IMG/VR virus record: IMGVR_UViG_3300046167_000468
Coordinates: 1 to 37,477 of that record
Strand: one strand, 5' to 3'
Source of the DNA: a virus
DNA: 37,477 nt
The number at the start of each line of letters is the position of its first letter. Within the stretch, counting starts at the first letter, position 1. A program made the translations under genes and the position numbers. The notes beneath the pieces were generated by a model. That model saw only the letters and a list, made by a program, of their open reading frames with translations. It made no database searches and was not told the DNA's origin. Positions 9,185 to 33,523 of this stretch are shown here, in pieces.

Positions 9185-9622
9185 ATGTATACAATACAAA
9201 GAATAGTAGGAGAGGATTTACTTCTCAATTATCAAGCAATCAAAACAGAATTAGAAAAAGCATTAGAGTATTCAGACGGTGAAAGAAGTGCAGCACAAAT
9301 TATACTTAATAGTGTCTCACAGCCCCAAATTTACCAGATATGGCAAGTTTATAAAGATGGTAAGGGGGTAGCACTAGGTTCAACAAGAGTCGTCCAATAC
9401 GAAGGATTTGTGGCTCTACACATAATTACATTAGCTGGTGACACTGATGGAGATTTAACAGAGTGGGCAGCTATGTTTGAACAGGAAATGAAAAACGAAT
9501 CGATTGACATGTTAGAGTTAACAGGTCGAAAAGGGTTTGTCAAACAATTAGAAAAAGCAGGTTGGACTGAAAGGTATACAACTATGCGTAAGTTTATCAA
9601 GGAGAAAGCCAATGGCGAATAG
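9185..9622 (+). CDS. GNAT-like protein
   Basis: A 145-residue protein. The order of elements (GKGVALGSTRVVQYEGFVAL, then a helix, then LELTGRKGFVKQLEKAGW near the end) resembles the C-terminal half of GNAT acyltransferases. The acetyl-CoA pyrophosphate loop (Q/R-x-x-G-x-G/A) is not evident, so it may be inactive or structural. Similar small proteins are found just before the internal virion proteins of T7-like marine phages. The stop overlaps the next start by about 10 bases. Confidence 0.5.
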   Translation: MYTIQRIVGEDLLLNYQAIKTELEKALEYSDGERSAAQIILNSVSQPQIYQIWQVYKDGKGVALGSTRVVQYEGFVALHIITLAGDTDGDLTEWAAMFEQEMKNESIDMLELTGRKGFVKQLEKAGWTERYTTMRKFIKEKANGE

Positions 9623-10211
9623 TACAATGACATCAATAACATCTTATGCAGATGATTATAAAGATCAAGCTAAAAAGATATTAGATGATGCTCAGAATCT
9701 TTATGACACTGGACAGCTAGGTAATGTTGCTGGTTTTACACAAGCACAAACAGATGCACAAGCTGCTGGTTTAGCTGCAGGTCAAGCGCAAATAGGACTT
9801 GAAGGTCAGCTTGCAGGCATGGCTGGTAAAACTGATTTATCTGGTATGAGACAGCAAGCCAAGAATGAAGCGTTACAAGCTTTAGGTCTTAACTCTGCTG
9901 CAGCTGGACGTATGGGAGGTCTTGGTGGTTCTCGACAAATGCTTAACAATCAATCGATAGCTAATGATTTAGCAGCATCGTTTGGTCAAATAGATATGCA
10001 AAGACAACAAATGGATTTGGCAAATACACAAGCAGCATTACAAGCACAAGGCACAGGTGCTGGACAAATGGCACAGATTGGTCAAGCTCAACAGCAACAA
10101 CAACAGAATGTTAATGATGCTGGTTATACTGGATTGACACAATTAGGTGAAATGTTTTCTAACATTGCATCTAAAAAAACCAGAACAGAATCAGACCAAG
10201 GAGGTAAATAA
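9612..10211 (+). CDS. Small internal virion (ejection) protein, gp14-like
   Basis: A 199-residue protein rich in Ala, Gln and Gly (QAAGLAAGQAQIGLEGQLAG; QQQQQQ near the end), mostly helical. This composition and its place first in the ejection-protein cluster match the small T7 gp14-like core protein, which forms part of the channel through which DNA enters the cell. Assignment is by composition and order. Its stop overlaps the ATG of the following gene. Confidence 0.55.
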   Translation: MANSTMTSITSYADDYKDQAKKILDDAQNLYDTGQLGNVAGFTQAQTDAQAAGLAAGQAQIGLEGQLAGMAGKTDLSGMRQQAKNEALQALGLNSAAAGRMGGLGGSRQMLNNQSIANDLAASFGQIDMQRQQMDLANTQAALQAQGTGAGQMAQIGQAQQQQQQNVNDAGYTGLTQLGEMFSNIASKKTRTESDQGGK

Positions 10212-10684
10212 TGCAATCAAGAACAATGGGACCATTAGGTATGTTTGGTATAGCGCAGTCACAATTGGAAAGAATTGGTTACAATCCTCTGGAGGCTTCT
10301 AATCCATTGGGTGAACCTATGTCTGGTGGTCGTGGCGGTGGTGGTTTTGGTTTTTCATTTGGTGGACCACAAGGATATACAAGAGCTCAATATGAATCTG
10401 CTATGGCAGATACGTATGCTAATGTTAGAGTGGGTACAGATGCTAATGGCAATCCAATATATGGCTATACAGGTCAAGATGAGCGTCCAACGGGTGGTGT
10501 AAATATGTCAAGAGCAGGTACAAGAGCTGATACTAATCCTTATGTACATGGTTCTAACAAAGCTAGAGGTCCACTTACTTATGGTGGTCATAATACACGT
10601 AATCAATTTGGCAGCAATCCTAGTAAAAATTATGGTGTTCCTAATAGTTCTGGACAAAGGCGTCTTGTAGTAGGAGGAAGATAA
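10211..10684 (+). CDS. Glycine-rich virion-region protein
   Basis: A 157-residue, low-complexity protein: a Gly/Phe-rich stretch (SGGRGGGGFGFSFGGPQGY) followed by Asn/Gly/Arg-rich text ending RRLVVGGR. There are no enzymatic motifs and it is likely disordered. It is coupled to both neighbours (TAATG-type overlaps) within the ejection cluster, so it is probably a minor virion or core protein. Confidence 0.5.
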   Translation: MQSRTMGPLGMFGIAQSQLERIGYNPLEASNPLGEPMSGGRGGGGFGFSFGGPQGYTRAQYESAMADTYANVRVGTDANGNPIYGYTGQDERPTGGVNMSRAGTRADTNPYVHGSNKARGPLTYGGHNTRNQFGSNPSKNYGVPNSSGQRRLVVGGR

Positions 10685-11100
10685 TGGCAAATACATATGC
10701 ACCCTTATACAATAGTTTGCAAGCCAGAGGTAGGATGTCTCCGCTTGGAGCTCCGGGAGCTATCAAACCAGAAAAGAAAAAGAAAGGTCTGGGTGATAAG
10801 ATGGCTTCTGCTTTAGGATCAATGATTGACCAATCAATGCAAGGTAGTGACGAAAAAAGAATTGCTCAGCTTATGCTTAGAAATGAAGAACTAAAAAAAG
10901 AAGAGCTAGCATGGGAAGGTTCACCTCAATGGAATCAAGAAAGTTATGAGTTTGAAGCGTTTGGTAGAGAACATTCTGGACATAAACGTGAAAAAGAATA
11001 TCAAAGTAATCTTAATGAGATTGACCAAATTAAGATTGGACAACAAATGGATGAGCCCGGCACAATGGAGTCATTAATTAATTCTTTCGTTAAGGTATAG
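10684..11100 (+). CDS. Small virion-region protein
   Basis: A 138-residue protein with a Lys-rich stretch (PEKKKKGLGDK) and a charged helical middle (LMLRNEELKKEELAWEG). No family is recognised. It overlaps the Gly-rich gene and precedes the large ejection proteins, so it is probably a minor core or assembly protein. Confidence 0.5.
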   Translation: MANTYAPLYNSLQARGRMSPLGAPGAIKPEKKKKGLGDKMASALGSMIDQSMQGSDEKRIAQLMLRNEELKKEELAWEGSPQWNQESYEFEAFGREHSGHKREKEYQSNLNEIDQIKIGQQMDEPGTMESLINSFVKV

Positions 11101-11109
11101 GAGATAGCA

Positions 11110-13308
11110 ATGGCAATTAACCCACAAAGACTTGAAGATGAGTACCAGTTTTGGGCTACAACTGACGGGTTTGGAAGAAAAGTACAAGACGCAGGTGGCG
11201 ATGGAGGACCAAGACGAGGAGGCAAAGCTAAGTATTCATTGTCACAAGTTTTTGACGACAGTGGCGAAACTCTTACTGAAACAAATATAGATGAGGACGG
11301 TTCTGAAACTAAAGTAGTTCAAAAAACCCCATCAAGTTTGTTAGATAATGAAAGTTATGACACGCCAATATTAGGTAATGATGAAGTTACGTTTCCATCT
11401 ATTGCTACTCCGCCAGAGGAAGATGATAATTTTGTATACGGTAGCGGTGGTTCATCTAGTGGTAGATGGGGTGGTCCTGCACGAGCTGGATTTATGGGAC
11501 CTACTGCAACTAGACCTTATGGTCCTCTTCCTAATGGAAGGTATTTAACAGAAGATGAGTATCTTGGTGCTGACCAAGCGTCTCGATGGCTTAGTCGTCC
11601 ATCAACTGAAAGTATTGAGTCTGATGTATTTGGAACTGGTATAGATGTAGAGCAGTCTGGTTCTGATATTTTAAACGATCAAGGAACTTTAGCAATTACT
11701 GACGAAGATAGAGCTAACGCACAGTCGTCTGTAATTGAAAGTATAAACAACCAAAGGATGATGGAGTTATACAACTCACGTCCTGATTTATATGAAAAGG
11801 TTGTTGAAGGCGAATTAGATATGCCAGTAATTGAAGACCCGCATAAAGATAAAGATTATACTACATCTGGTTTTGATGGTTCTTCTTTGCATTCTGATTC
11901 AGTACCGGGTTCTTTCATATCAGAAACATTTGACAGGTATCGCAATGAAGATGGTGTAATTGTAGACAGTCCTATAAGGTCTGATGTTTTTGATGAAGAC
12001 AATCCTTTGTTTACTACACTACATCCTGAAGCAGCTAGAGAAGTTACTGAAGAAAAAATTCAAGAAGAAGAAAAAGAGTTAGAAAAAAACTTTGATGATT
12101 TGCCATGGGCTGGCGATAAGGGTATAGATTTAACAGCAGTTGTACAAGAAATTAAAGACACAGACCCAAAAGCAATTGAAGTGCTTAATGAGTTTGCATC
12201 ATGGGCAGACACAGTTACAGATGAAGTAGCAATTAAAGAAGCTGAGAATTATTTACTTAGCCTTAAGAACTCTCCATCAGTAGATAGTAGATTTAGAAAA
12301 GCTATGGCGATTGGCATGATTGCTATGTTATTTGGTGATGACTTTACTACAGCAATGAACACAGGTTTCGGTGTGGTTGCTGATGATTACACAGCAGAAG
12401 CTGAAGCTGCAAAGACAGAAGCTGAAGCAGCAGCAGAGTTAGCTAAAACTATTGCTAAAGAAGGTAGGGCAAATGCTGAGAATGACCGAAGAAAAATGAG
12501 AGACTTTACGTTAGAAATGGCAAAGACACGGGCTGAATTAGGAGTCAAAGCAGCTGAAGACCTCGAAGCAGAAATAAAAGCTAGAGCTGGGAACAATCAA
12601 GATTATATAAGTAAAGAAGCTTCTCATTACGAAAGCATTCTGACTGATGATCAAAAGAAAACGCTTGGTGTTTTTAATTTTGGTGCACAATATGATCGTG
12701 CTTTACAATTTGTTAAGAAAGCTCAACCAGATGTTGTTTGGGATTTAAAAAATAACAACGATCAAAGAGTTGCGTTTGATACACAGTTTCAAAAATGGTT
12801 ATCAGATAAATTAAATGGTAATAATTTTGGACAAGGTGTTCCAGCTTTTGCAAATTATATGCAAGATGCGTTTATTAAAACACAGCTTGAAGGTGAAAGT
12901 ATTTTAAACATGAAAGATACTAATCCAAGTTTGTATGATTTACAACAAATGGGTATTGATACTGACAAGATTGATTTTGGTGCAGGTATGGAAGCAACCA
13001 ATGCAGCTTACACAAAGATTGAAGATTATTCTACAGGTTTTAATGAGCGAGGTACATTAGCTTTAATGGCTAAAGATTATTATGATTGGCAAAAATCTGA
13101 CCCAGACGCACATAAAGATATGGTTAGGCGAGCCAATGAACAAGGTATTGGTGGTTTTATTTGGTATGTTACTAGACATGTAGAACCTACAGATACAATA
13201 GGCACAAAGTATGACCCATTAGCTGTAGGAAAAGATAACGAATGGAGGTCAGATTTTGCTATTCAGTATTTACGCAAAGAAGGTATTATTGTAACACCAA
13301 CAAAATAG
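11110..13308 (+). CDS. Internal virion (ejection) protein, gp15-like in size and place
   Basis: A 732-residue protein, close to the size of T7 gp15 (747). Residues 1-330 are acidic and low in predicted structure. About 425-500 is an Ala/Glu-rich coiled coil (AEAEAAKTEAEAAAELAKTI). The remainder is helical with aromatic residues (DYYDWQKSDPDAHKD). It lies between the small core proteins and the 1,366-residue ejection protein, matching the T7 14-15-16 order. The assignment is by position and size. An AGGAG-type site precedes the start. Confidence 0.55.
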   Translation: MAINPQRLEDEYQFWATTDGFGRKVQDAGGDGGPRRGGKAKYSLSQVFDDSGETLTETNIDEDGSETKVVQKTPSSLLDNESYDTPILGNDEVTFPSIATPPEEDDNFVYGSGGSSSGRWGGPARAGFMGPTATRPYGPLPNGRYLTEDEYLGADQASRWLSRPSTESIESDVFGTGIDVEQSGSDILNDQGTLAITDEDRANAQSSVIESINNQRMMELYNSRPDLYEKVVEGELDMPVIEDPHKDKDYTTSGFDGSSLHSDSVPGSFISETFDRYRNEDGVIVDSPIRSDVFDEDNPLFTTLHPEAAREVTEEKIQEEEKELEKNFDDLPWAGDKGIDLTAVVQEIKDTDPKAIEVLNEFASWADTVTDEVAIKEAENYLLSLKNSPSVDSRFRKAMAIGMIAMLFGDDFTTAMNTGFGVVADDYTAEAEAAKTEAEAAAELAKTIAKEGRANAENDRRKMRDFTLEMAKTRAELGVKAAEDLEAEIKARAGNNQDYISKEASHYESILTDDQKKTLGVFNFGAQYDRALQFVKKAQPDVVWDLKNNNDQRVAFDTQFQKWLSDKLNGNNFGQGVPAFANYMQDAFIKTQLEGESILNMKDTNPSLYDLQQMGIDTDKIDFGAGMEATNAAYTKIEDYSTGFNERGTLALMAKDYYDWQKSDPDAHKDMVRRANEQGIGGFIWYVTRHVEPTDTIGTKYDPLAVGKDNEWRSDFAIQYLRKEGIIVTPTK

Positions 13309-13317
13309 GAGTCTACA

Positions 13318-16300
13318 ATGGCTGAAGAAAAAACTTACATGCAAATGCTACAAGAAAAAATGCCAGTGGTATTTGATCTTGATGCAGATACTGTAAGAGA
13401 TTCTGCTGGAGATATAAGGTATGACAATCTTAATGCTCCTGAAGTTGATCATATGAAAAAGGATGGCTTTGCTCCCGGAGATTGGGGTGGTGAGTTTTAT
13501 ACTAAACTTTATGCTGACCTTGCGAATGAAACTGGTTACACTGGTACATATCGCACTGGCGAGAAAGGATATTATGGTCGTGACTTAGGTGGCAGACAAG
13601 ACGAGTACGGTGAGTCTTTTTCTAATAAGCTTTATTATGAAGGTTTAGCTAGACCTAAAGATGAAGAGACACAAGAGCTTGCTGACATGGGGGTGTTTGC
13701 TAGAGCTTTTAGAGCTGAAGTACAAGGTGAGCAAGAAGATGTTTGGCAAAAAGCCAGAGACAAACAAACTACATACATGAATGAAACCATGGGTGGTTTT
13801 AAAGCACTTGCTACTGATGAGGCAGAACTAGCACAATACAATGCGTTTTTTGGTGAGAGTTATAGTCCTTTTTATCAGCATGATGTACAGTACAGACATG
13901 AAGATAGAGACTTAGACAACATTGCTAACAGCAACTTTAGAACAGGTTGGGCAGTTGGTTGGGGTTCTATTAAACAATCAGCAACAGAAGCTGTGTCTAT
14001 GTTAGGCGACATGTTAGGCAATCAAGATTTATATGATTGGGGTGCAATACGTTCAAGAGAGGCTGACTATGAGAACTCTAAGCGACCTATTTTTAGTAAT
14101 GATATAACAGATGTTACTGATGCTAAGAGTTTTGGAAAGTGGGTTGCTGGTATTTCTGGAGTTGCATTGCCATACATGCTTGGACTTATAGGTACTAGAG
14201 CAGTAGGCGGTGTTGTAGCTGCAACTTCTCCTATACTTGGACCGGGTGCTTTTGGTGTTGGTATGACAATGGCTTTTGCTCCAGCAGTATGGGTGTATGC
14301 TGGTGAAGCTTACGGCAATATGCAAGGAGGCATGGATCAAAAGAATGCTGGTCTTGCTTTATCTGCTGGCGTTGTTATGGCAGCATTAGATATGTTAGGT
14401 CTTAAAGGTATTATGGGCGCATCAACAGCACTTAGACAAGACGGTATTAAGATTATTGCTAAAGAGTACGCTAAGAAAGAAGGTATCTCAGAAGAAGCAG
14501 CCACAAAATTAGTGACAGACCAGATGGGAAATCTTAAAGCTTTAGCTCTTAAAGATATAGCAGTTATGTCAGAGATGCAACTGAACAAATCTTTATTAGC
14601 TAAATCTGTTGGTAAGAGAACTGCAAAAGGTATGTCTATTGAAGGCGGTACAGAATTTTTACAAGAGTCTACGGGTTATTTAGCTGGACACTTTGGAACA
14701 GACAGTAGTATCAGACCTGACTTTGATTTTGACGAGTGGCAACGCATTGCAATAAACGCAACAGCAGGAGGTTTTGTTCTGGGTGGAGGTATTGCTGGAA
14801 CAACAACTACATACGGTGAGATAGCAGGGTTCAATAGATTAAAAAGAGATGTTAGTCCTGTTGAAAAAAGTAAAAACTGGATTGGCGGTAAATCTTTAGA
14901 AAGAGCAGATGCTATGTTAGGCACTAAAAGTGATGAACAAGTTTCAGTTATTTTAGATTCAGATGGAAATCCTATTATCAAAGAAGAAGCAGACCCTGAT
15001 GCACCAGAGGTTTATAGCTTTGAGGGAGATAACAGAGATGTTTTAAAAGAGTTTGAACAAGATTATAATACTGGTCATCAACAAGATTTGTCAACTGGAA
15101 GGGGTGGCGAAAAAACTTTGTGGCAAAATGTTAAAGAATTTCCTGCAAGATTTACTAAGAAGGTTGGTTCTTTTTGGGAATCAAGAGCCTTAAAAGCTAT
15201 TGACAAGTATGCTAAGAATCCTGAAAGAGCTAAAGAGTTGTTAGCTATTATACTTACACAGTATGGTATGAGCAATTCAACTTGGATGCAGGGACTTGAT
15301 CTTGGCAATACAAAAAGATTATTGCAACAAAAGTTATTGCATGATGTTGCTCAGTTTAAAGCAGATTTAAATACTTTACTGGGTGTAGGTGTTGGTGGCA
15401 AAACAGATGTAGAAGCTACCAAAATATTTATGGATTATCTTCAAGCAAAACGAGAAGGTAAGTCAACAAATCCAGAGTACAATCAGATAGCTAGCCAATT
15501 AGATGCAATGGTTGAGAGAATTGGTGGTCAGATTGAAGGCAGCAATAAAGGTCTTACAGATAATATACTTACTGAAATTAATAAAGTATTAGGCGGTACG
15601 GCAGAGGTTAAAAGAAAACCTTTTTATTTTCAAGATAGTGCAAAGCTAAAGTTATCTGAAGTTGTTAAAGACAAAGATGGCTTTATAGAAAAGCTTACTA
15701 ATTCTGATTGGTCACAAACAGAAGCAGAAGAGTTCTATGAGTTTTTAGAAAGTGGTCCTATGCATTATGATAAGTCTACACTTAGAGAGCTTGGATTTTT
15801 AAACTATCCAGCACGTTCGGTCAAACAATCTAAAGATCAGTTATATAAAATATTTGGAGAAGATTCTAAGTTTTTAGAAAACGATCCATTCCAAAGACTA
15901 AGAGAGAATATACAAGAGCAAGTTAACTATGCGGTTGATAATAGAATGCTTGGTCAAAAGGGAATGCGATATAAAAAGTTGATGTTAATGTTGAAAGATG
16001 AAATGGGAGAAGGTTGGGATCCAAGAATGCTTACACATTTTACTGATAGTATTGCTGCATCACGTGGTGACTACAGAAGAATGGATAGCAAGAAAGCGGA
16101 AAGAATGATTGGACATATTACTTTCTTTAATACTTTTTCTCATTTAGATTTGTCAGCTCTAGCTTCTCTGCCAGAGGCAGCACTTGTTTTACTGGGTGCG
16201 ACAAAAGATAAAAAGCTTATGGAGCTTTTTCAAATGGGTGTTAATGACTTTGCTAGAAAGTATGTTACAGAAGGCAAGAATGGTTACTCTTATATTAATC

Positions 16301-17418
16301 CATCAGTTGGTTTAACAAGAGAGCAGTACACCAGGAATCTGGCAGATTTCTACAGGTATGGTTATGGCACATCTACTCACGGTGCTATTGGTCAAGTAGG
16401 TATTGATGAAGGTGTTTATAAGGCATCAAAGATTAAAGAGTTTGCAATGAGCACATTCTTTAGAGCTAACCTTCTTAAAATATATACAGACACTACAAGG
16501 GTTGCACGTTTAGCATTAGCTAATGATGCTATTTTTGGTGACTTAGAAATAGTTACAATGTTTCCACCGGGACATCACAATAGAAATACAGGTTTATTTC
16601 ATGATGCTTTCGAAAGATTAAGAGATTTGAACATTGACCCAGATGCTTTAGCTAGAAGATACAAACCTTTAGTTGATGCTGCAAGAATGACTTTAAATGA
16701 AGGTCATGATACGCAAACGCTTTACGATAGAATACTAGAGATGGACCCGTCATTTATAGAAGACATGGACATTGCTAGAATGACTTGGGTTGATAATGCT
16801 ATTGCTCATCCAGATGCAATGAACAGACCTTTGTTCTATTCTAATCCATACTATCGTTTGTTTACGCAGTATAATGGTTTTATGTCTGTGTTTACAGCTT
16901 CTATTCTTCCAAAGATTTGGAAAAGAATAAAGTCACAAGACCCTACAGCAAAGTATTCTACAGTTGCTATTGCTGCGACTATGATTGTTGCAGGGTTTTT
17001 AAGTCAAGCTATGAAAGACGAATGGAGATATGGTGGAAGACCGGGATGGCTTTCGGAGAAAGGTTTCTTACAAAGAGGAGTTGCTTCATCAGGATTACTT
17101 GGAACACCTGAGAAACTATTGTCAGCTATTAGTCCTATATATGATGACAGCAAGAAGCCTTGGGAGTCTTCAATGGATTACGGAGCACGCAAAGGTGGTC
17201 ATGCAATCAGAGAGTTTCTTGGTCCAACATATGCACATGGTGAGCAGTTAGCTAAGATATTTATGTCACAGATAGATGGTGATTTAGATAGAAGAAACAT
17301 GTATCTTTCAAAAGAAATACCTTTCTTAGGTAAAAATAAAAACTGGAAAGACTACAATTTAGGAAGAGGAGATATAAATATAGATGAAGCTCTTAAAAAA
17401 ACAGTACCATTTTTATAA
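13318..17418 (+). CDS. Large ejection protein, gp16-like in size, with N-terminal SNase-like domain
   Basis: A 1,366-residue protein, close to T7 gp16 (1,318). Residues about 15-113 look like a staphylococcal-nuclease fold. DLDADTV (20-26) matches the DGDT loop, R34 the first catalytic Arg, NAPE (39-42) the D-x-P-E region with Asn for Asp, YGRDL with R88 the second Arg, and GESFSNKLYYEGLARP the terminal helix. Residues about 275-365 are hydrophobic and Gly/Ala-rich, able to enter a membrane. The long helical remainder ends in LGKNKNWKDY and a C-terminal VPFL. In T7 the N-terminus is a transglycosylase; here a nuclease-like domain takes that place. Activity is unproven. Start context: TAGGAG. 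Confidence 0.65.
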   Translation: MAEEKTYMQMLQEKMPVVFDLDADTVRDSAGDIRYDNLNAPEVDHMKKDGFAPGDWGGEFYTKLYADLANETGYTGTYRTGEKGYYGRDLGGRQDEYGESFSNKLYYEGLARPKDEETQELADMGVFARAFRAEVQGEQEDVWQKARDKQTTYMNETMGGFKALATDEAELAQYNAFFGESYSPFYQHDVQYRHEDRDLDNIANSNFRTGWAVGWGSIKQSATEAVSMLGDMLGNQDLYDWGAIRSREADYENSKRPIFSNDITDVTDAKSFGKWVAGISGVALPYMLGLIGTRAVGGVVAATSPILGPGAFGVGMTMAFAPAVWVYAGEAYGNMQGGMDQKNAGLALSAGVVMAALDMLGLKGIMGASTALRQDGIKIIAKEYAKKEGISEEAATKLVTDQMGNLKALALKDIAVMSEMQLNKSLLAKSVGKRTAKGMSIEGGTEFLQESTGYLAGHFGTDSSIRPDFDFDEWQRIAINATAGGFVLGGGIAGTTTTYGEIAGFNRLKRDVSPVEKSKNWIGGKSLERADAMLGTKSDEQVSVILDSDGNPIIKEEADPDAPEVYSFEGDNRDVLKEFEQDYNTGHQQDLSTGRGGEKTLWQNVKEFPARFTKKVGSFWESRALKAIDKYAKNPERAKELLAIILTQYGMSNSTWMQGLDLGNTKRLLQQKLLHDVAQFKADLNTLLGVGVGGKTDVEATKIFMDYLQAKREGKSTNPEYNQIASQLDAMVERIGGQIEGSNKGLTDNILTEINKVLGGTAEVKRKPFYFQDSAKLKLSEVVKDKDGFIEKLTNSDWSQTEAEEFYEFLESGPMHYDKSTLRELGFLNYPARSVKQSKDQLYKIFGEDSKFLENDPFQRLRENIQEQVNYAVDNRMLGQKGMRYKKLMLMLKDEMGEGWDPRMLTHFTDSIAASRGDYRRMDSKKAERMIGHITFFNTFSHLDLSALASLPEAALVLLGATKDKKLMELFQMGVNDFARKYVTEGKNGYSYINPSVGLTREQYTRNLADFYRYGYGTSTHGAIGQVGIDEGVYKASKIKEFAMSTFFRANLLKIYTDTTRVARLALANDAIFGDLEIVTMFPPGHHNRNTGLFHDAFERLRDLNIDPDALARRYKPLVDAARMTLNEGHDTQTLYDRILEMDPSFIEDMDIARMTWVDNAIAHPDAMNRPLFYSNPYYRLFTQYNGFMSVFTASILPKIWKRIKSQDPTAKYSTVAIAATMIVAGFLSQAMKDEWRYGGRPGWLSEKGFLQRGVASSGLLGTPEKLLSAISPIYDDSKKPWESSMDYGARKGGHAIREFLGPTYAHGEQLAKIFMSQIDGDLDRRNMYLSKEIPFLGKNKNWKDYNLGRGDINIDEALKKTVPFL

Positions 17419-17433
17419 TATAGGAGAGACCAC

Positions 17434-18765
17434 ATGGCTCTAAATCTACAAACCACCAAGCAAATGGGTGGAAGAAGCCTTGTTGATGCATCAAACAATC
17501 CCCTTCTAAAAAGTATTTTAGAGGGGACAGCTGCATTACAAACTGATCCTGTTACGCAAAAACCTAAAAGCAAAAAAGAAACAGGGCAGTCAGTTGCAGA
17601 TACAAGAGCTCAGTTAGATCAAAACTATCAAGCTGTTGATGCTGCATACGATTCAAGTGTAGCTGCTTTAAATACTATGGCTAGCACTGGTAGAAGCACG
17701 CCATCAGTATATACACAAAGCCAAGCTAGAGCGCAAGGCGATTCTACATTGGCTAAATCTGATGCTGCAATTATTGGTCAAGCACAAACTTATGCTGACG
17801 CTATGTTAGCTAACCCTAGGTTTGATAACTCTAAGATGGGAGAAGACCCTAACTTAGACTATGATGAAGAGGCACGATTGTTGGAGGCGTTTGCTAATCA
17901 AGCAGGCGTTGAGCCTGAGCAAGTTGCATCTGACCCTAGATTGTATGAAGCTTTTGGTAGGTTTTTAGGTTTGTCTACTGGCACTATGAGTAATGATAAG
18001 TATTACGCATATGATGTTAACGGTAATAATCTAAAAGATGATAGTAACAACAATTATAAAACATGGACACCATGGGTGCAACCTAAGTTTGTTACACAGG
18101 TTTCAGGTGTAGGTACAAAAATAAAAGACAATCCTATTGCTCAAAAGTTTAGAGGCAACAAGGATGCTTATGTAAAAAAAGAAATGGCACAAGGTGTCTC
18201 AGAAGCTGATGCTATACAAGCTTGGAATCAAATGGGTGATTTAGATACCACTCAGTCATTAATAGGACAAACAGGATTTCCAAGAGAGGATGCAACAGTT
18301 TTGCGTGCATCAGAGATGGCAGCTAAGACACAAAAAACATTAAGTTCTTTTGTTCGTAGTGTACATGCTGCTTCAGTTAATCGTTCTCCTATGGCAGCTT
18401 CAAGATTTGCTGAGAAAATAACAGGGAATAGATACGATGAGTTTAAAGGTGAATCTATCAACGATATGATTAATCTTTTTATACATACGCATGCTGCTTT
18501 AGAAGAGCAATCCGAGACAGCAGCTCAAGCTTACTCAGATATTATGATGTTAGCTGTAATGGACCATGCTTTGCAAAATGTATATAGATATGAAAATAAA
18601 AAGTCAGACCCTAATGCTGAAGAAGCTCCTGCTTCAATAGAAAATGAATCTACTGAGGCTGCTATTAAAAGATATGACTCGACATTGATGTCAGGTGCTG
18701 CTGATCAAAAACAAATAGGTAGTACTATCTTAAACAATATGGGCTTTCGGAAAGACTACTGCTGA
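17434..18765 (+). CDS. Virion RNA polymerase, N-terminal fragment (frameshifted)
   Basis: The first 443 residues of a gene that really extends to 21623. Residues 1-130 are Gln/Ser/Ala-rich (SVADTRAQLDQNYQ), and the rest is helical. The frame ends at a one-base break at 18745-18747: reading TTT as TT turns MGFRKDYC-stop into MGFGKTTAEQQEA and on into the next frame. The break is inside a helical text that continues smoothly, so this is one protein and not two. No catalytic motif is in this part; in N4 and T7 the corresponding region recognises the promoter. Start context: TATAGGAGA. Confidence 0.7.
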   Translation: MALNLQTTKQMGGRSLVDASNNPLLKSILEGTAALQTDPVTQKPKSKKETGQSVADTRAQLDQNYQAVDAAYDSSVAALNTMASTGRSTPSVYTQSQARAQGDSTLAKSDAAIIGQAQTYADAMLANPRFDNSKMGEDPNLDYDEEARLLEAFANQAGVEPEQVASDPRLYEAFGRFLGLSTGTMSNDKYYAYDVNGNNLKDDSNNNYKTWTPWVQPKFVTQVSGVGTKIKDNPIAQKFRGNKDAYVKKEMAQGVSEADAIQAWNQMGDLDTTQSLIGQTGFPREDATVLRASEMAAKTQKTLSSFVRSVHAASVNRSPMAASRFAEKITGNRYDEFKGESINDMINLFIHTHAALEEQSETAAQAYSDIMMLAVMDHALQNVYRYENKKSDPNAEEAPASIENESTEAAIKRYDSTLMSGAADQKQIGSTILNNMGFRKDYC

Positions 18766-20341
18766 ACAACAAGAAGCTATGGGTGCTATGGCAATGGACA
18801 TAGTGTTTAAAACTTTTGATAAGAATCAAACAAAGAAAGACCAGTTGTTTAGAAAAGTAGAAGTTAAAGCTATGAAAAGCGGAGTACCTATTACATTAAT
18901 AGGGCATACTTTTACTAAAGAAGGTCTTGCATTAGCTCAAGATATGAAAGGTTTGTTTGAAGTTGTTATGCCTAAGTCGCAGAGAAATGTTAGGTATGGT
19001 ACTTTACTTACAGATAAGACTGCTATTGAAAAGCTGATTGGTGTACGTGTTGATGATTACGAATACACAATTCCTTTCGGTGACACAACTATCGCAGCCA
19101 TGCATAAACAGCAAGCTGATAATACTCCTGTGCGTATTCATCGTGAGTCTCAACAGTTTTGGGATAAGGTTTATACTGAGTATCAAAACGAGTTGCAGCG
19201 TGAAGCAATGACACAAGGTGCAGAGCGTTCTACAATTCTAGATGATTTAGATGGTGCAAACTTTTTTAATTCAAAAGGTAATGGCAATGGACAAAAGGGT
19301 AGCTTCCAAAGTAGACCCGGCTTTGTCTATGTTACTGACAGACAAGGAAGGTTTTATCATAAAGATTCACCTCATTTAATCTATGAGGGTGCAACAGAAA
19401 AAACTTATACTAAGAATGATGGTAGAAGTATAGAGGATGCTGCACAACAAATGGACTTTAGTGACAAGGTTAAAGACCAGCAATTTATAAATACAATTGA
19501 GTTTGCTACAACAAACTTAGATAAAGTTTTTTATTACACTTATAAGTATGGAAAAAACTGGAGGCTTAACGTAGATCAAACTGTTGGTAATTACCAGCAT
19601 AATAAATTTGCAAGGTCTTTGATTGCTGCTGGTGTACCTGCTACTTATAATCTTAAGAACAAGAAAGATGTTATTCAAATCAAAGCTGGTATTATGAAAC
19701 GCTATGGTATGGATATGAAGAACCCTATTGAAGCTGCTTTAGAATATGACGCAGCTATCAACAGGTGGACACAGTTAGATGCTAGCCAAGATTTAAAAGG
19801 CATACTTAGAGAAGCTGGAAAAGAAGAAGGCTTTGCTTCGGTTGCTGCAATACTTGAAGGCATTAGGCTGAAGAAACATATGGACGGAAACAATCCTACA
19901 TATACTTCTACTTTCTTTACAGAGATTGATGGCAAGACTAATGGTCTTGCTCATGCAGCTGCACAATCAGGTGACTTGGTTTCTGGAAGTCGTGCTCTTA
20001 TATTTGGTGAAGAAGATTACGCTACATGGAATAAATATTATGATGAGTTTGAAAAGATTCAGAATGATCCAGAGAAAATACGTGAGCTTGAAAACAAATA
20101 TGATTTAGAACCGGGTGCGTTAAGCACTTATCTTGATGCTTACAATAGTGTTAACAATTCTTTATTAAAAGATTTTGCTAAGATTAGAGCGGGAGTTACT
20201 GAGTCTGGTGATTTGGTTACATTTCCGGGCATGTTGTTAGAAGGTACAAGTGAAAAGTTTAAAGTTATAATGCAAGATGCACAAGACAATGGTGGGACTA
20301 GCAAAGTTTACTATGGCTTTAGATATGTTTGGTCAGAGTGA
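18746..20341 (+). CDS. Virion RNA polymerase, middle fragment with motif A (frameshifted)
   Basis: This fragment continues the gene begun at 17434. Motif A of single-subunit RNA polymerases is at 19928 (EIDGKTNGLAHAAAQSGD), matching T7 DGSCSGIQHFSA with the catalytic Asp. Upstream lies YTYKYGKNWRLNVDQTVG at about 19535-19590, which fits the T/DxxGR region, although the Arg is replaced by Lys. A second DRQGRFY string occurs at about 19340. The frame ends after motif A. Reading GGG at 20294-20296 as GG continues it as NGGLAKFTMALDMFGQSE, which is the approach to motif B. Confidence 0.75.
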   Translation, partial: FGKTTAEQQEAMGAMAMDIVFKTFDKNQTKKDQLFRKVEVKAMKSGVPITLIGHTFTKEGLALAQDMKGLFEVVMPKSQRNVRYGTLLTDKTAIEKLIGVRVDDYEYTIPFGDTTIAAMHKQQADNTPVRIHRESQQFWDKVYTEYQNELQREAMTQGAERSTILDDLDGANFFNSKGNGNGQKGSFQSRPGFVYVTDRQGRFYHKDSPHLIYEGATEKTYTKNDGRSIEDAAQQMDFSDKVKDQQFINTIEFATTNLDKVFYYTYKYGKNWRLNVDQTVGNYQHNKFARSLIAAGVPATYNLKNKKDVIQIKAGIMKRYGMDMKNPIEAALEYDAAINRWTQLDASQDLKGILREAGKEEGFASVAAILEGIRLKKHMDGNNPTYTSTFFTEIDGKTNGLAHAAAQSGDLVSGSRALIFGEEDYATWNKYYDEFEKIQNDPEKIRELENKYDLEPGALSTYLDAYNSVNNSLLKDFAKIRAGVTESGDLVTFPGMLLEGTSEKFKVIMQDAQDNGGTSKVYYGFRYVWSE

Positions 20342-21623
20342 ATTTGGCAGGGCTTTTACTAAAAAACCTGTGATGATTTTTGCTTATGGTGCTGGTGATG
20401 CAAGACATATTGAGGAAGTTAGGTCTTACATTGACGGAATAATGAGAGAAAATGGTGCTGGTTTTCAGCAAAAATTAACAGACGCAGGCATTGATGTTGA
20501 TAGAGATTTTATTGAACCTCTTGGTGTAATGATGTCGCAAGCTGTTAATACTAACTTTAATCAGATTAAAACATTTGCAAATGCTTTGTCTGCAATGGGT
20601 GCTGAAGCAGTCAATCAAGGTTTTGAATTGTTTATACCAACAATGGACGGTCATTTAATTCCAATAGGTGACATGGAATATTGGATAAGCAAAGACCCCG
20701 GAGACAAGAGACAGCAGAAATGGATTTTGCCAGACGGAGAAACAGCGTCTACTGTTCAAGTACAACACATGAATAAGAGGTGGGATTCTAGAGCTGGCAG
20801 AGATTTACCAGACCTCTCGAATGTCGGCAACAGCATAAGAATATTCAAAGCTGCAACACAGATGGCAGTAATGTTAACTCATGCCAATGACAATACGAAC
20901 ATGCAAAGAGCTATTTATAATATGCATGAAGCTAAGCTTGGCAAAAGAAAGGCTGACAAGAATGATGCAATGGATGAATCATCATTGCCTTATGGTAATA
21001 CATCTTTACATATCTTTGATGGTTTATTAGTTACGCCTAAAGAAGCTGAAGAGTATGCTGAAATGTTAAACAATGTGTTTAGAGATATGAATACTGATCC
21101 TCACAAGAGTCATATGCATGCTTTATACACAGCGTTATCTTTTGAGTTAGATTCAAATGGTCAAAAGATTAAAGATGATAACTATATGAATCATCCTCTT
21201 CTTAAAAATGGTCAGAAAGATATGTCTGACAAACAATGGAATAGGCTTGTAAATCATTATCGTTATAGACGTAGATTAAAACCAGAAGCTAGAGAAGAAA
21301 CTTTGCAAGATGATGGACCTTCTTCTTGGGACCCAAAATATAACAGGGCAGAAACTTCTCAGGGTAAAGTAATTCGTGAAGCGCAGGCTTTCGATTGGAA
21401 GACACCAGACAAGACCGTCAAAGGTAAAAAGGTTAGAGGTACACAATGGTACTTTAATAAATACTTTAAAGGTGAAGGTGCTTTCTATGATGCTAAGCAA
21501 CAGTTTGCAAGAGACAAACAACATTACAAACAGTTCTTTTATTCTACTGATACTCTTGATAATCAGATTAAAAACTATAAAGGCAATGCTAATTTAGATG
21601 CCATGGTTTGGAAATCTAATTAA
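20295..21623 (+). CDS. Virion RNA polymerase, C-terminal fragment with motifs B and C
   Basis: This is the end of the polymerase. Motif B is GRAFTKKPVMIFAYGAG, with Arg at 20349, Lys at 20361 and Tyr at 20385, the same spacing as T7 R627-K631-Y639. Farther on, LTHANDNTN resembles the T7 VHSQDGSH element. Motif C is LHIFDGLLVTP, with the catalytic Asp at 21018-21020, followed by a helix ending near NVFRDM as in T7. All catalytic residues are present, so an active enzyme is expected once the frames are joined. It is the last gene of the late arm and ends just before the terminator. No host-type promoter is seen here. Confidence 0.8.
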   Translation, partial: GLAKFTMALDMFGQSEFGRAFTKKPVMIFAYGAGDARHIEEVRSYIDGIMRENGAGFQQKLTDAGIDVDRDFIEPLGVMMSQAVNTNFNQIKTFANALSAMGAEAVNQGFELFIPTMDGHLIPIGDMEYWISKDPGDKRQQKWILPDGETASTVQVQHMNKRWDSRAGRDLPDLSNVGNSIRIFKAATQMAVMLTHANDNTNMQRAIYNMHEAKLGKRKADKNDAMDESSLPYGNTSLHIFDGLLVTPKEAEEYAEMLNNVFRDMNTDPHKSHMHALYTALSFELDSNGQKIKDDNYMNHPLLKNGQKDMSDKQWNRLVNHYRYRRRLKPEAREETLQDDGPSSWDPKYNRAETSQGKVIREAQAFDWKTPDKTVKGKKVRGTQWYFNKYFKGEGAFYDAKQQFARDKQHYKQFFYSTDTLDNQIKNYKGNANLDAMVWKSN

Positions 21624-31045: not shown

Positions 31046-33490
31046 TCAGCAGAAGAAGAAGTCCGACCCGTATATATCTTCTAGTATTAATTTACCTACT
31101 TCAGGTGTCTCTTCACTAAAGTTTTCTTCATCCCAGATAATTTCTTGACGCATAACTGCAAAGATATCTTTTGCATACATTTTTACGAATTCACTTTTAG
31201 TAGCGTTGATCAATGATTCTACATCAGCAGCATGAACACTAAAGCTATCATGTATTGCACCAAAACTTTTTAAATTTAATGTATTTATTACTAAAGACAT
31301 GTGACTTGCATCATAAGAGTGAACCCAATTAGCTCCGATTGCAGATAAATGTTCAGCTAGTGTTGGTATGTCTGTTGTTTCTAAATACACATGACTTATT
31401 TGTTTCTTTTGCAACGAACCTTTATAAACTTTTTTGCGTGCTACCCATTTTTGTGTAAGCACAGGGAACCCACTAGGCGTATTCCATGATATGTCCTTCA
31501 TGTTCATATGATTTATTTTATGATCGACTAATGCTTGCAAATACTTTTTGATTTCTACTGGTCCATGACAAATAGAATCATAAGCTTGTACTAAATCTTT
31601 ACCTAACGTTTTGGAGTCAGACCTTGTTATGTTATAAGTTGATGTGATTCCGGCATCATAACAATCTTGATAAATTATTTCACCTATTTTTCTTGCACCT
31701 GCATCATATGCACGTGTCATAGAGCCACGTTTACTGATGCCTTTACGTACTAATTTCATTGGTATGTGTTGCATTTTGTCACCAATCTCTGTGTTTTTAT
31801 TTAGTTCTAATATTTTTTTACCCATGACCAAGTAAAAATCTTTAGGCATTTTCATTGGCATCAATCCTACTAACTCACCAGCTTTTTCATCTAAAGACAT
31901 TGCTGCTAAATGTTGCGTACCGTTGTTAACTCCGTCAATTGAGATTGGCATTGATGAATAGTATGGTTCACCACTTAATGCGCTGCCGATTATTCCGCCA
32001 ATTTCAAAACATAATGATAAAAATACCCATGGTTTTTCAGCAGACATCCAATATTTTTGTGTGCTTACAGGGTTTTCTGCTACGTTTAATATCATGTCAA
32101 CATGTTCTATTGTCCAATTGTGTTTGTCCAATACACCCATTTTGTCTACTGAGATGTCTACTAAGCCGTCATTTTCAAGAGATGTTTTATAATCTAACTC
32201 TAACCATTCTTGGTGTGGTAACTCAGCTATTTTGTACGTTTGATTAAATGATGTTGCAGCGTGAATAAATGTATATTCAGCACCTTTTTGATCTATTTCT
32301 TTTTCTTCATGAAATAAAAAATGTGCACGTGCTAAATCATTTGATTGATAACTGAAGTAGGGATCACGATTGTATATACGTCCACGGTAATCAAGATACA
32401 TTGATTGATAAAACTCGTATCCTAACCAGCCGGGATGATGTTGAGTGCCGTTTATTGTATCTAAAATCGCCATATTTCTTGTGGCTTGTGACTGAATGCG
32501 AAGGCAGTATTGTTTGTCCGTCCAACGCCTATTTTCAAGGTTGTATCTATCTTGAATTATTTTTAATTTATATTCTGTTTCTTTTATTTTGTTTAAGTTT
32601 TTTAATTTACTAATTCTGTTAGTGAGTTTTTCTATTTCTTTTTCTAATTTTGGTACAGCGCTTGAATTACCTAGATGTGGTTCAAACAAATCTTCGTCAC
32701 GATACAGCAGCATTCCATTTAAATGTTTGTTAATGTTATCTCGTTTTATATCAATTGTATCAAAGGTTATAACTAGACCTTCACTGTTAATTAATTCTAT
32801 TTCTGTGTTCACAAGTTGAGGGCGTAATGCCAAGCTGACTGCTGCAACCTGTGGATTTATTTTCCATCGTACTTTTTCTAATTTGTTTATGGATTCAAAG
32901 AATGCTTTATCATTGTACGAATGATCAATTTCTACATTAGATTTTACGAGTCTTTCAGTTACACCTAATGTTTTACGTTGCCCTTTGATCCATGGTTTGT
33001 ATGGGTACTTTGAAAGACCTATACGATCTTGCGGGTCAATAGATATTTTTGTAAAATTTTCACCAATTTCTAAAACATAGGGATTATAGTTGATTTTTTG
33101 CTTGATTGTGTTTTGGTATACGTCTTCTACTCTAAAGAATGGCTCACGAGTGAGAATAAGGTATCTATTTTCAATTAATTGGTCTAAGATGAAGTCACCT
33201 AGCATTAAACAAATAGAGTCCTTAGAATCGAATCCTCCTGCGTTTAGTATATTTAATGCGGTTGCACCAATATTTTTAGAAGTATTCGTTAATTTGATTA
33301 CACCTTCGTTTTGTTTAAACTTTTGAACCAAATAAATGAATACTGAATTTAGTATTCTGACAGTTCTAAAGTCGTTGTACACACATTGTGCTTCACGGAA
33401 TATTTGTGCAGCACCTGAAGCATTGTTGTTTCTATTTGAGATTCTATATTCTAGAATATCAGCTTCTGTATTTATTAGATTTTGTTCCAT
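31046..33490 (-). CDS. T7-type single-subunit RNA polymerase
   Basis: A protein of 814 residues from the ATG at 33490 (AGGAGG just upstream); a GTG at 33517 would add nine residues. Motifs: DYRGRIY (about 367), motif A SIDGVNNGTQH with D519, motif B KRGSMTRAYDAG with K587 and Y595, HSYDASH (about 724), and motif C IHDSF with D748. The C-terminus SDFFFC resembles the T7 SDFAFA foot. It has a Lys/Glu-rich coiled-coil insertion (about 280-320). It would transcribe middle and late phage genes. A terminator-like hairpin and promoter-like region lie upstream. Confidence 0.97.
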   Translation of the reverse strand: MEQNLINTEADILEYRISNRNNNASGAAQIFREAQCVYNDFRTVRILNSVFIYLVQKFKQNEGVIKLTNTSKNIGATALNILNAGGFDSKDSICLMLGDFILDQLIENRYLILTREPFFRVEDVYQNTIKQKINYNPYVLEIGENFTKISIDPQDRIGLSKYPYKPWIKGQRKTLGVTERLVKSNVEIDHSYNDKAFFESINKLEKVRWKINPQVAAVSLALRPQLVNTEIELINSEGLVITFDTIDIKRDNINKHLNGMLLYRDEDLFEPHLGNSSAVPKLEKEIEKLTNRISKLKNLNKIKETEYKLKIIQDRYNLENRRWTDKQYCLRIQSQATRNMAILDTINGTQHHPGWLGYEFYQSMYLDYRGRIYNRDPYFSYQSNDLARAHFLFHEEKEIDQKGAEYTFIHAATSFNQTYKIAELPHQEWLELDYKTSLENDGLVDISVDKMGVLDKHNWTIEHVDMILNVAENPVSTQKYWMSAEKPWVFLSLCFEIGGIIGSALSGEPYYSSMPISIDGVNNGTQHLAAMSLDEKAGELVGLMPMKMPKDFYLVMGKKILELNKNTEIGDKMQHIPMKLVRKGISKRGSMTRAYDAGARKIGEIIYQDCYDAGITSTYNITRSDSKTLGKDLVQAYDSICHGPVEIKKYLQALVDHKINHMNMKDISWNTPSGFPVLTQKWVARKKVYKGSLQKKQISHVYLETTDIPTLAEHLSAIGANWVHSYDASHMSLVINTLNLKSFGAIHDSFSVHAADVESLINATKSEFVKMYAKDIFAVMRQEIIWDEENFSEETPEVGKLILEDIYGSDFFFC

Positions 33491-33523
33491 ACACCTCCTA
33501 TAGTTATTTTTTACCACTATACT

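Follow-up and report, generated by a model that had tools for sequence, protein, structure and literature searches.

A staphylococcal nuclease-like domain at the N-terminus of a predicted ejection protein in a marine podovirus-like phage

Introduction

The ejection protein gp16 of phage T7 carries an N-terminal transglycosylase, a muralytic domain that acts in the periplasm. To our knowledge, the enzyme activities found on podophage ejection proteins are either cell-wall cutting, as in T7 gp16, or RNA synthesis, as in the virion RNA polymerase (vRNAP) of phage N4, and we know of no staphylococcal nuclease (SNase) domain in the N4 virion protein set. Members of the SNase family (PF00565) include free or secreted enzymes, and the nuclease of S. 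aureus itself is a basic protein. The SNase fold and family are known, as are ejection proteins, but our search of the open-licence PMC literature turned up no ejection protein described as carrying an SNase domain.

The sequence analysed here (the window) is a virus record of 37,477 bases, taken at its full length. An earlier note, made from the letters of this sequence, had placed an SNase-like domain at positions 13357-13660, which correspond to residues ~14-115 of an open reading frame (ORF) of 1,366 codons (Table 1). The phage is marine and podovirus-like, and is a distant relative of Roseobacter phage CRP-7, a short-tailed isolate (PMC6918029). CRP-7 gp34 (QBQ72827.1, 1,368 aa, annotated as a hypothetical protein) is a full-length homologue of the window's protein at 24% identity, with an N-terminal SNase domain and the same gene order, while the near relatives L003 and L004 from IMG/VR share 87-96% identity with it.

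Table 1. Features of the predicted ejection locus, in positions of the window
Feature	Position	Strand	Basis
Upstream partner, predicted ejection protein, 732 aa, no cysteine	11110..13308	+	Upstream in closest relatives too; no Pfam domain
Predicted ejection protein, 1,366 aa, T7 gp16-sized	13318..17418	+	ORF; AGGAG upstream; no cysteine
SNase-like domain, residues 15-113	13360..13656	+	Profile against PDB, AF2, Foldseek
DADT, D22-A-D24-T25 (SNase D19, D21, T22), metal site	13381..13392	+	Invariant in 48/48 non-redundant relatives
R34 (SNase R35)	13417..13419	+	Invariant in 48/48
N39 (SNase D40, second Ca ligand, substituted)	13432..13434	+	Varies among 48 relatives
E42 (SNase E43)	13441..13443	+	Invariant in 48/48
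R88 (SNase R87)	13579..13581	+	Invariant in 48/48
C-terminal body segment common to structural proteins of other phages	16408..17142	+	tblastn: CRP-7, KPP25, Vibrio phage particle proteins
vRNAP-like giant, three ORFs in different frames	17434..21623	+	phrog_2206 virion RNAP, E 1.7e-9

Genomic Context of the 1,366-aa Protein

The gene for the 1,366-aa protein is preceded by that of a partner protein and followed by that of a giant resembling a vRNAP, and this order is kept in the loci whose neighbors were examined. Like T7 gp16 (1,318 aa), it has no cysteine and begins with an enzyme-like domain, although this domain is nuclease-like instead of muralytic and a vRNAP-like gene follows in the window. 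A phage sequence search with the window's protein found no similarity to T7 gp16. The idea that a nuclease has taken the place of the T7 transglycosylase holds as an analogy only: in relatives the muralytic domain sits on the upstream partner instead. It takes the form of an SLT transglycosylase in L036 and L046, a phage lysozyme in L038, and a Pesticin/lysozyme-like domain in CRP-7 gp35; the L038 partner (L038:210-4373) is 1,387 aa long and has its lysozyme domain internally, at residues 609-731 (E 1.5e-33). Unlike these, the 732-aa partner in the window has no muralytic domain recognizable in our searches.

The arrangement also recalls N4, in which the vRNAP (gp50) occurs beside the cysteine-free partners gp51 and gp52, but the RNA polymerase-like protein here is ~1,400 aa long, compared with 3,500 in N4. 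Relatives encode this giant as one intact ORF (1,395, 1,380, 1,414, or 1,141 aa), and in the window's group it features, in relatives, the T7-like motif B GRAFTKKPVMIFAYGAG. Since a profile of the giant found no match in the PDB, its identity as an RNA polymerase rests on phrog_2206, weak matches to Pfam RNA_pol models, and these motifs. In the window the giant is split over three frames (17434-18765, 18779-20341, and 20277-21623), which reflects either a sequencing error or a broken gene. A second RNA polymerase gene, of the T7-like type, lies on the minus strand at 31046-33517 (phrog_414, E 3.6e-88). One RNA polymerase would thus be carried in the virion and another made.

The C-terminal part of the 1,366-aa protein matches phrog virion structural proteins and has relatives among the structural or particle proteins of Pseudomonas phage KPP25 and of Vibrio phages. 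An SNase domain was sought in cousins that share this C-terminal body (Vibrio phages KIT05 and 1.262.O, Pseudomonas phages JB8 and CRPAP1904) and was absent from them, which marks the domain as a lineage-specific module. The family also includes longer ejection proteins, in L079, L081, and L082, with lengths that reach 1,803 aa.

A further signature comes from amino acid composition. The three large ejection-type proteins of 18 loci contain 2 cysteines in 62,845 aa, compared with 16.5 per 1,000 aa in the remaining large proteins encoded there, and cysteine is entirely missing from the window's 1,366-aa protein and from 44 of its 45 full-length relatives. The same is true of T7 gp15 and gp16, N4 gp50, gp51, and gp52, and P22 gp7, gp16, and gp20; T7 gp14 has one cysteine, and most other virion proteins tested from T7, N4, and P22 have some. 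Passage through a narrow channel followed by an oxidizing periplasm would account for this absence, which supports ejection as an empirical signature. Gene order, the body held in common with phage structural proteins, and the lack of cysteine together bear out the earlier assignment as an ejection protein. From these computed features we infer packaging and injection, and the predicted ejection protein very probably enters the host.

Homology of the N-Terminal Domain to SNase

Taken alone, the window's sequence gives a faint signal. It scores 14.6 bits (E 0.046) against the Pfam SNase model (PF00565), which is below the curated cut-off of 21. No match was returned by phmmer with the single sequence against the PDB, by tblastn of the domain against phages, or by PHROGs for the SNase-like domain. 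Such scores would fit a chance resemblance or a convergence of motifs with no homology to SNase. When the SNase profile was scanned over the whole record, it matched in one place only, the N-terminus of the 1,366-aa ORF.

Most relatives were gathered as dozens of marine contigs, by alignment of the C-terminal part and by full-length alignments with search patterns in the body of the protein. Because these patterns lie outside the N-terminal domain, neither its presence nor its conservation in these relatives was selected for. Bacterial genomes yielded no relatives at the sensitivity used, which gives no support to a cellular or prophage origin. The Pfam SNase model matches 12 of 41 relatives at E ≤ 1, with a best value of 3.1e-5. 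A profile built from 20 sequences finds thermonuclease in the PDB at E 9.8e-6, and one built from 41 sequences gives 67 PDB matches at E ≤ 0.01 (best 6.3e-6), with SNases making up 60 of 60 among the matches listed. Matches of the 20-sequence profile to designed 'Cake' repeats were sums of nine repeats of ~2.8 bits each and were discarded; the hits of the 41-sequence profile do not include them. Isolated weak matches to Mrr_cat (E 0.14), Choline_bind_3, and Arg_decarbox_C were also dropped.

Structure prediction leads to the same family. An AF2 model computed from 20 sequences (pLDDT 83.3, pTM 0.71) has an OB-fold with SNase topology. An AF2 run with 6 sequences reached a pLDDT of 44, and our conclusions are drawn from the 20-sequence model only, in which beta-strand 1 is unassigned. 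The best 50 Foldseek matches in the PDB are all SNases or human SND1, with probability 1.00 and a TM of ~0.5. In BFVD, the best match is A0A646QXC0, a viral protein of 1,368 aa, the length of CRP-7 gp34. BFVD also returned A0A6J5NQ80 (E 0.042, probability 0.99), a protein of 1,342 aa from an uncultured Caudovirales phage that resembles the window's protein in size and by this model match; its name, 'Staphylococcal nuclease (SNase-like), OB-fold', was apparently assigned automatically.

The motifs are also in their expected places. DADT (residues 22-25), R34, NAPE (39-42), and YGR (86-88) were recovered where the earlier note had put them, and the closing motif is present with its spacing corrected by one residue, from G-x3-NKL to G98-x4-NKL-x2-EGLA. 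A HMMER alignment to thermonuclease pairs D22, D24, T25, R34, E42, and R88 with SNase D19, D21, T22, R35, E43, and R87, and the order and spacing of the D19/D21/T22, R35, E43, and R87 equivalents are those of the SNase family. Profile searches, the AF2 model, and Foldseek thus agree on SNase and on nothing else, and the columns without variation coincide exactly with the catalytic ones. This contradicts a chance or convergent origin of the motifs, which we regard as extremely improbable despite the faint single-sequence scores. The homology of residues ~15-113 to SNase can be considered settled for practical purposes.

Conservation of the Catalytic Residues

Conservation was assessed after dereplication at 85% identity, which left 48 copies whose pairwise identity over the aligned domain ranges from 16 to 95% with a median of 28%. 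Six columns of the window's domain (D22, D24, T25, R34, E42, and R88) were already invariant in the 20-sequence alignment, and the same six, with no other column, are invariant in all 48 copies. This set equals the catalytic and metal-site residues of SNase minus D40. The chance that four catalytic columns would all fall among six invariant columns out of 99 is ~4e-6. The dN/dS of the domain is 0.05-0.20, and purifying selection acts on it. The earlier note had named as evidence against a nuclease the case that close relatives lack the catalytic residues; this was looked for and not seen, as the D21, R35, E43, and R87 equivalents are present throughout.

The Second Metal Ligand and the Question of Activity

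As the earlier note observed, a single aspartate is replaced, with N39 standing in for SNase D40. Of the 48 relatives, 21 have D at this site, 13 have N, 7 have E, and 4 have S, with W, T, and R occurring once each, and a tree built from the body of the protein implies at least 11 changes. In the window's clade, which has six members, the residue is N, S, W, or R and never acidic. CRP-7 gp34, in contrast, keeps D40 together with all the catalytic residues. Replacing D40 in S. aureus nuclease reportedly costs much less activity than replacing D21, R35, E43, or R87. In Tudor-SN, the SN1 and SN3 domains keep one calcium-binding residue and support Ca-dependent RNA cleavage (PMC5900569), which indicates that the loss of one metal-binding aspartate does not entail the loss of activity. 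Elsewhere in the family, both Asp residues are retained in plant CAN nucleases along with two Arg and the Glu (PMC3505149), and Mg is the preferred metal of one mycoplasma SNase (PMC3585158). Judged by its sequence, the domain is probably a working metal-dependent phosphodiesterase.

Apart from N39 and a score under the Pfam cut-off, the domain departs from the SNase family in being acidic (median pI 4.8) and in being built into a giant phage protein as its N-terminal module. A general DNA nuclease would not usually be so acidic, and the charge may weaken binding to free DNA. Also, a Ca-dependent nuclease that was active inside the capsid would endanger the phage's own genome. The loss of D40 and the negative charge may help to keep the nuclease off the packaged genome; alternatively, they could indicate a fold that serves mainly for binding in the window's clade. 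The SNase fold could have been reused without catalysis, to bind nucleic acid or partner proteins and, for example, to organize the end of the DNA within the ejection core. The D40 ligand missing from the window's clade and often elsewhere, the acidic domain, the danger of an active nuclease in the capsid, and the cousins that manage with the same body and no SNase domain are all consistent with such reuse. However, the equivalents of R35, E43, R87, and D21 are fixed in 48 relatives despite a median identity of 28%, whereas the Tudor-SN domains with no assigned activity (SN2, SN4, and SN5) have degenerate metal residues (PMC5900569). On balance, we consider reuse of the fold rather unlikely.

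A Possible Role at the Start of Infection

The reading that we favor, as somewhat probable, is that of a gp16-type ejection protein with a true SNase-family domain, which is injected and cleaves nucleic acid as infection begins. Fold, homology, and the conserved catalytic set are computed; catalysis, substrate, and timing are inferred. The 1,366-aa protein would be stored in the virion core and would leave the capsid at infection together with its partner and the virion RNA polymerase, with the SNase domain traveling at its N-terminus. Nucleic acid would then be cut from the outset of infection, with host DNA or RNA as the likeliest target.

An active domain could also have a target other than the host chromosome. 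Its site of action may be the periplasm or the cell surface, its substrate may be foreign or competitor DNA or some other phosphodiester, or it may trim the end of the phage's own DNA. The domain occupies an N-terminal place like that of the periplasm-acting muralytic domain of T7 gp16. Seawater and the periplasm are rich in Ca2+, as is the cell surface, and cytosolic Ca2+ is low. The acidity and the tolerance of change at the D40 site suggest that the substrate or the metal is unusual, and some SNase relatives cut RNA (PMC5900569) and one depends on Mg (PMC3585158). The substrate is not readable from sequence, however, and we judge a target of this kind to be unlikely.

If the injected domain favored above is indeed a nuclease, it would be a third kind of activity, brought in ahead of all phage gene expression, and would permit an immediate attack on host nucleic acid or the processing of DNA in the envelope. 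It would also raise the question of how a virion stores an active nuclease next to its own genome. We tentatively suggest that a whole marine phage lineage may inject an SNase-family enzyme along with a virion RNA polymerase, the enzyme being silent in the capsid and switched on in the cell or envelope, perhaps through its metal site, where the second ligand has been replaced repeatedly. CRP-7, an isolated phage with the full catalytic set including D40, makes the nuclease question testable now.

Independent of the nuclease, the lack of cysteine may serve as a simple marker of ejected proteins in uncultured phages. In the window, a run of genes devoid of any cysteine extends over positions 9185-17418 on the plus strand.
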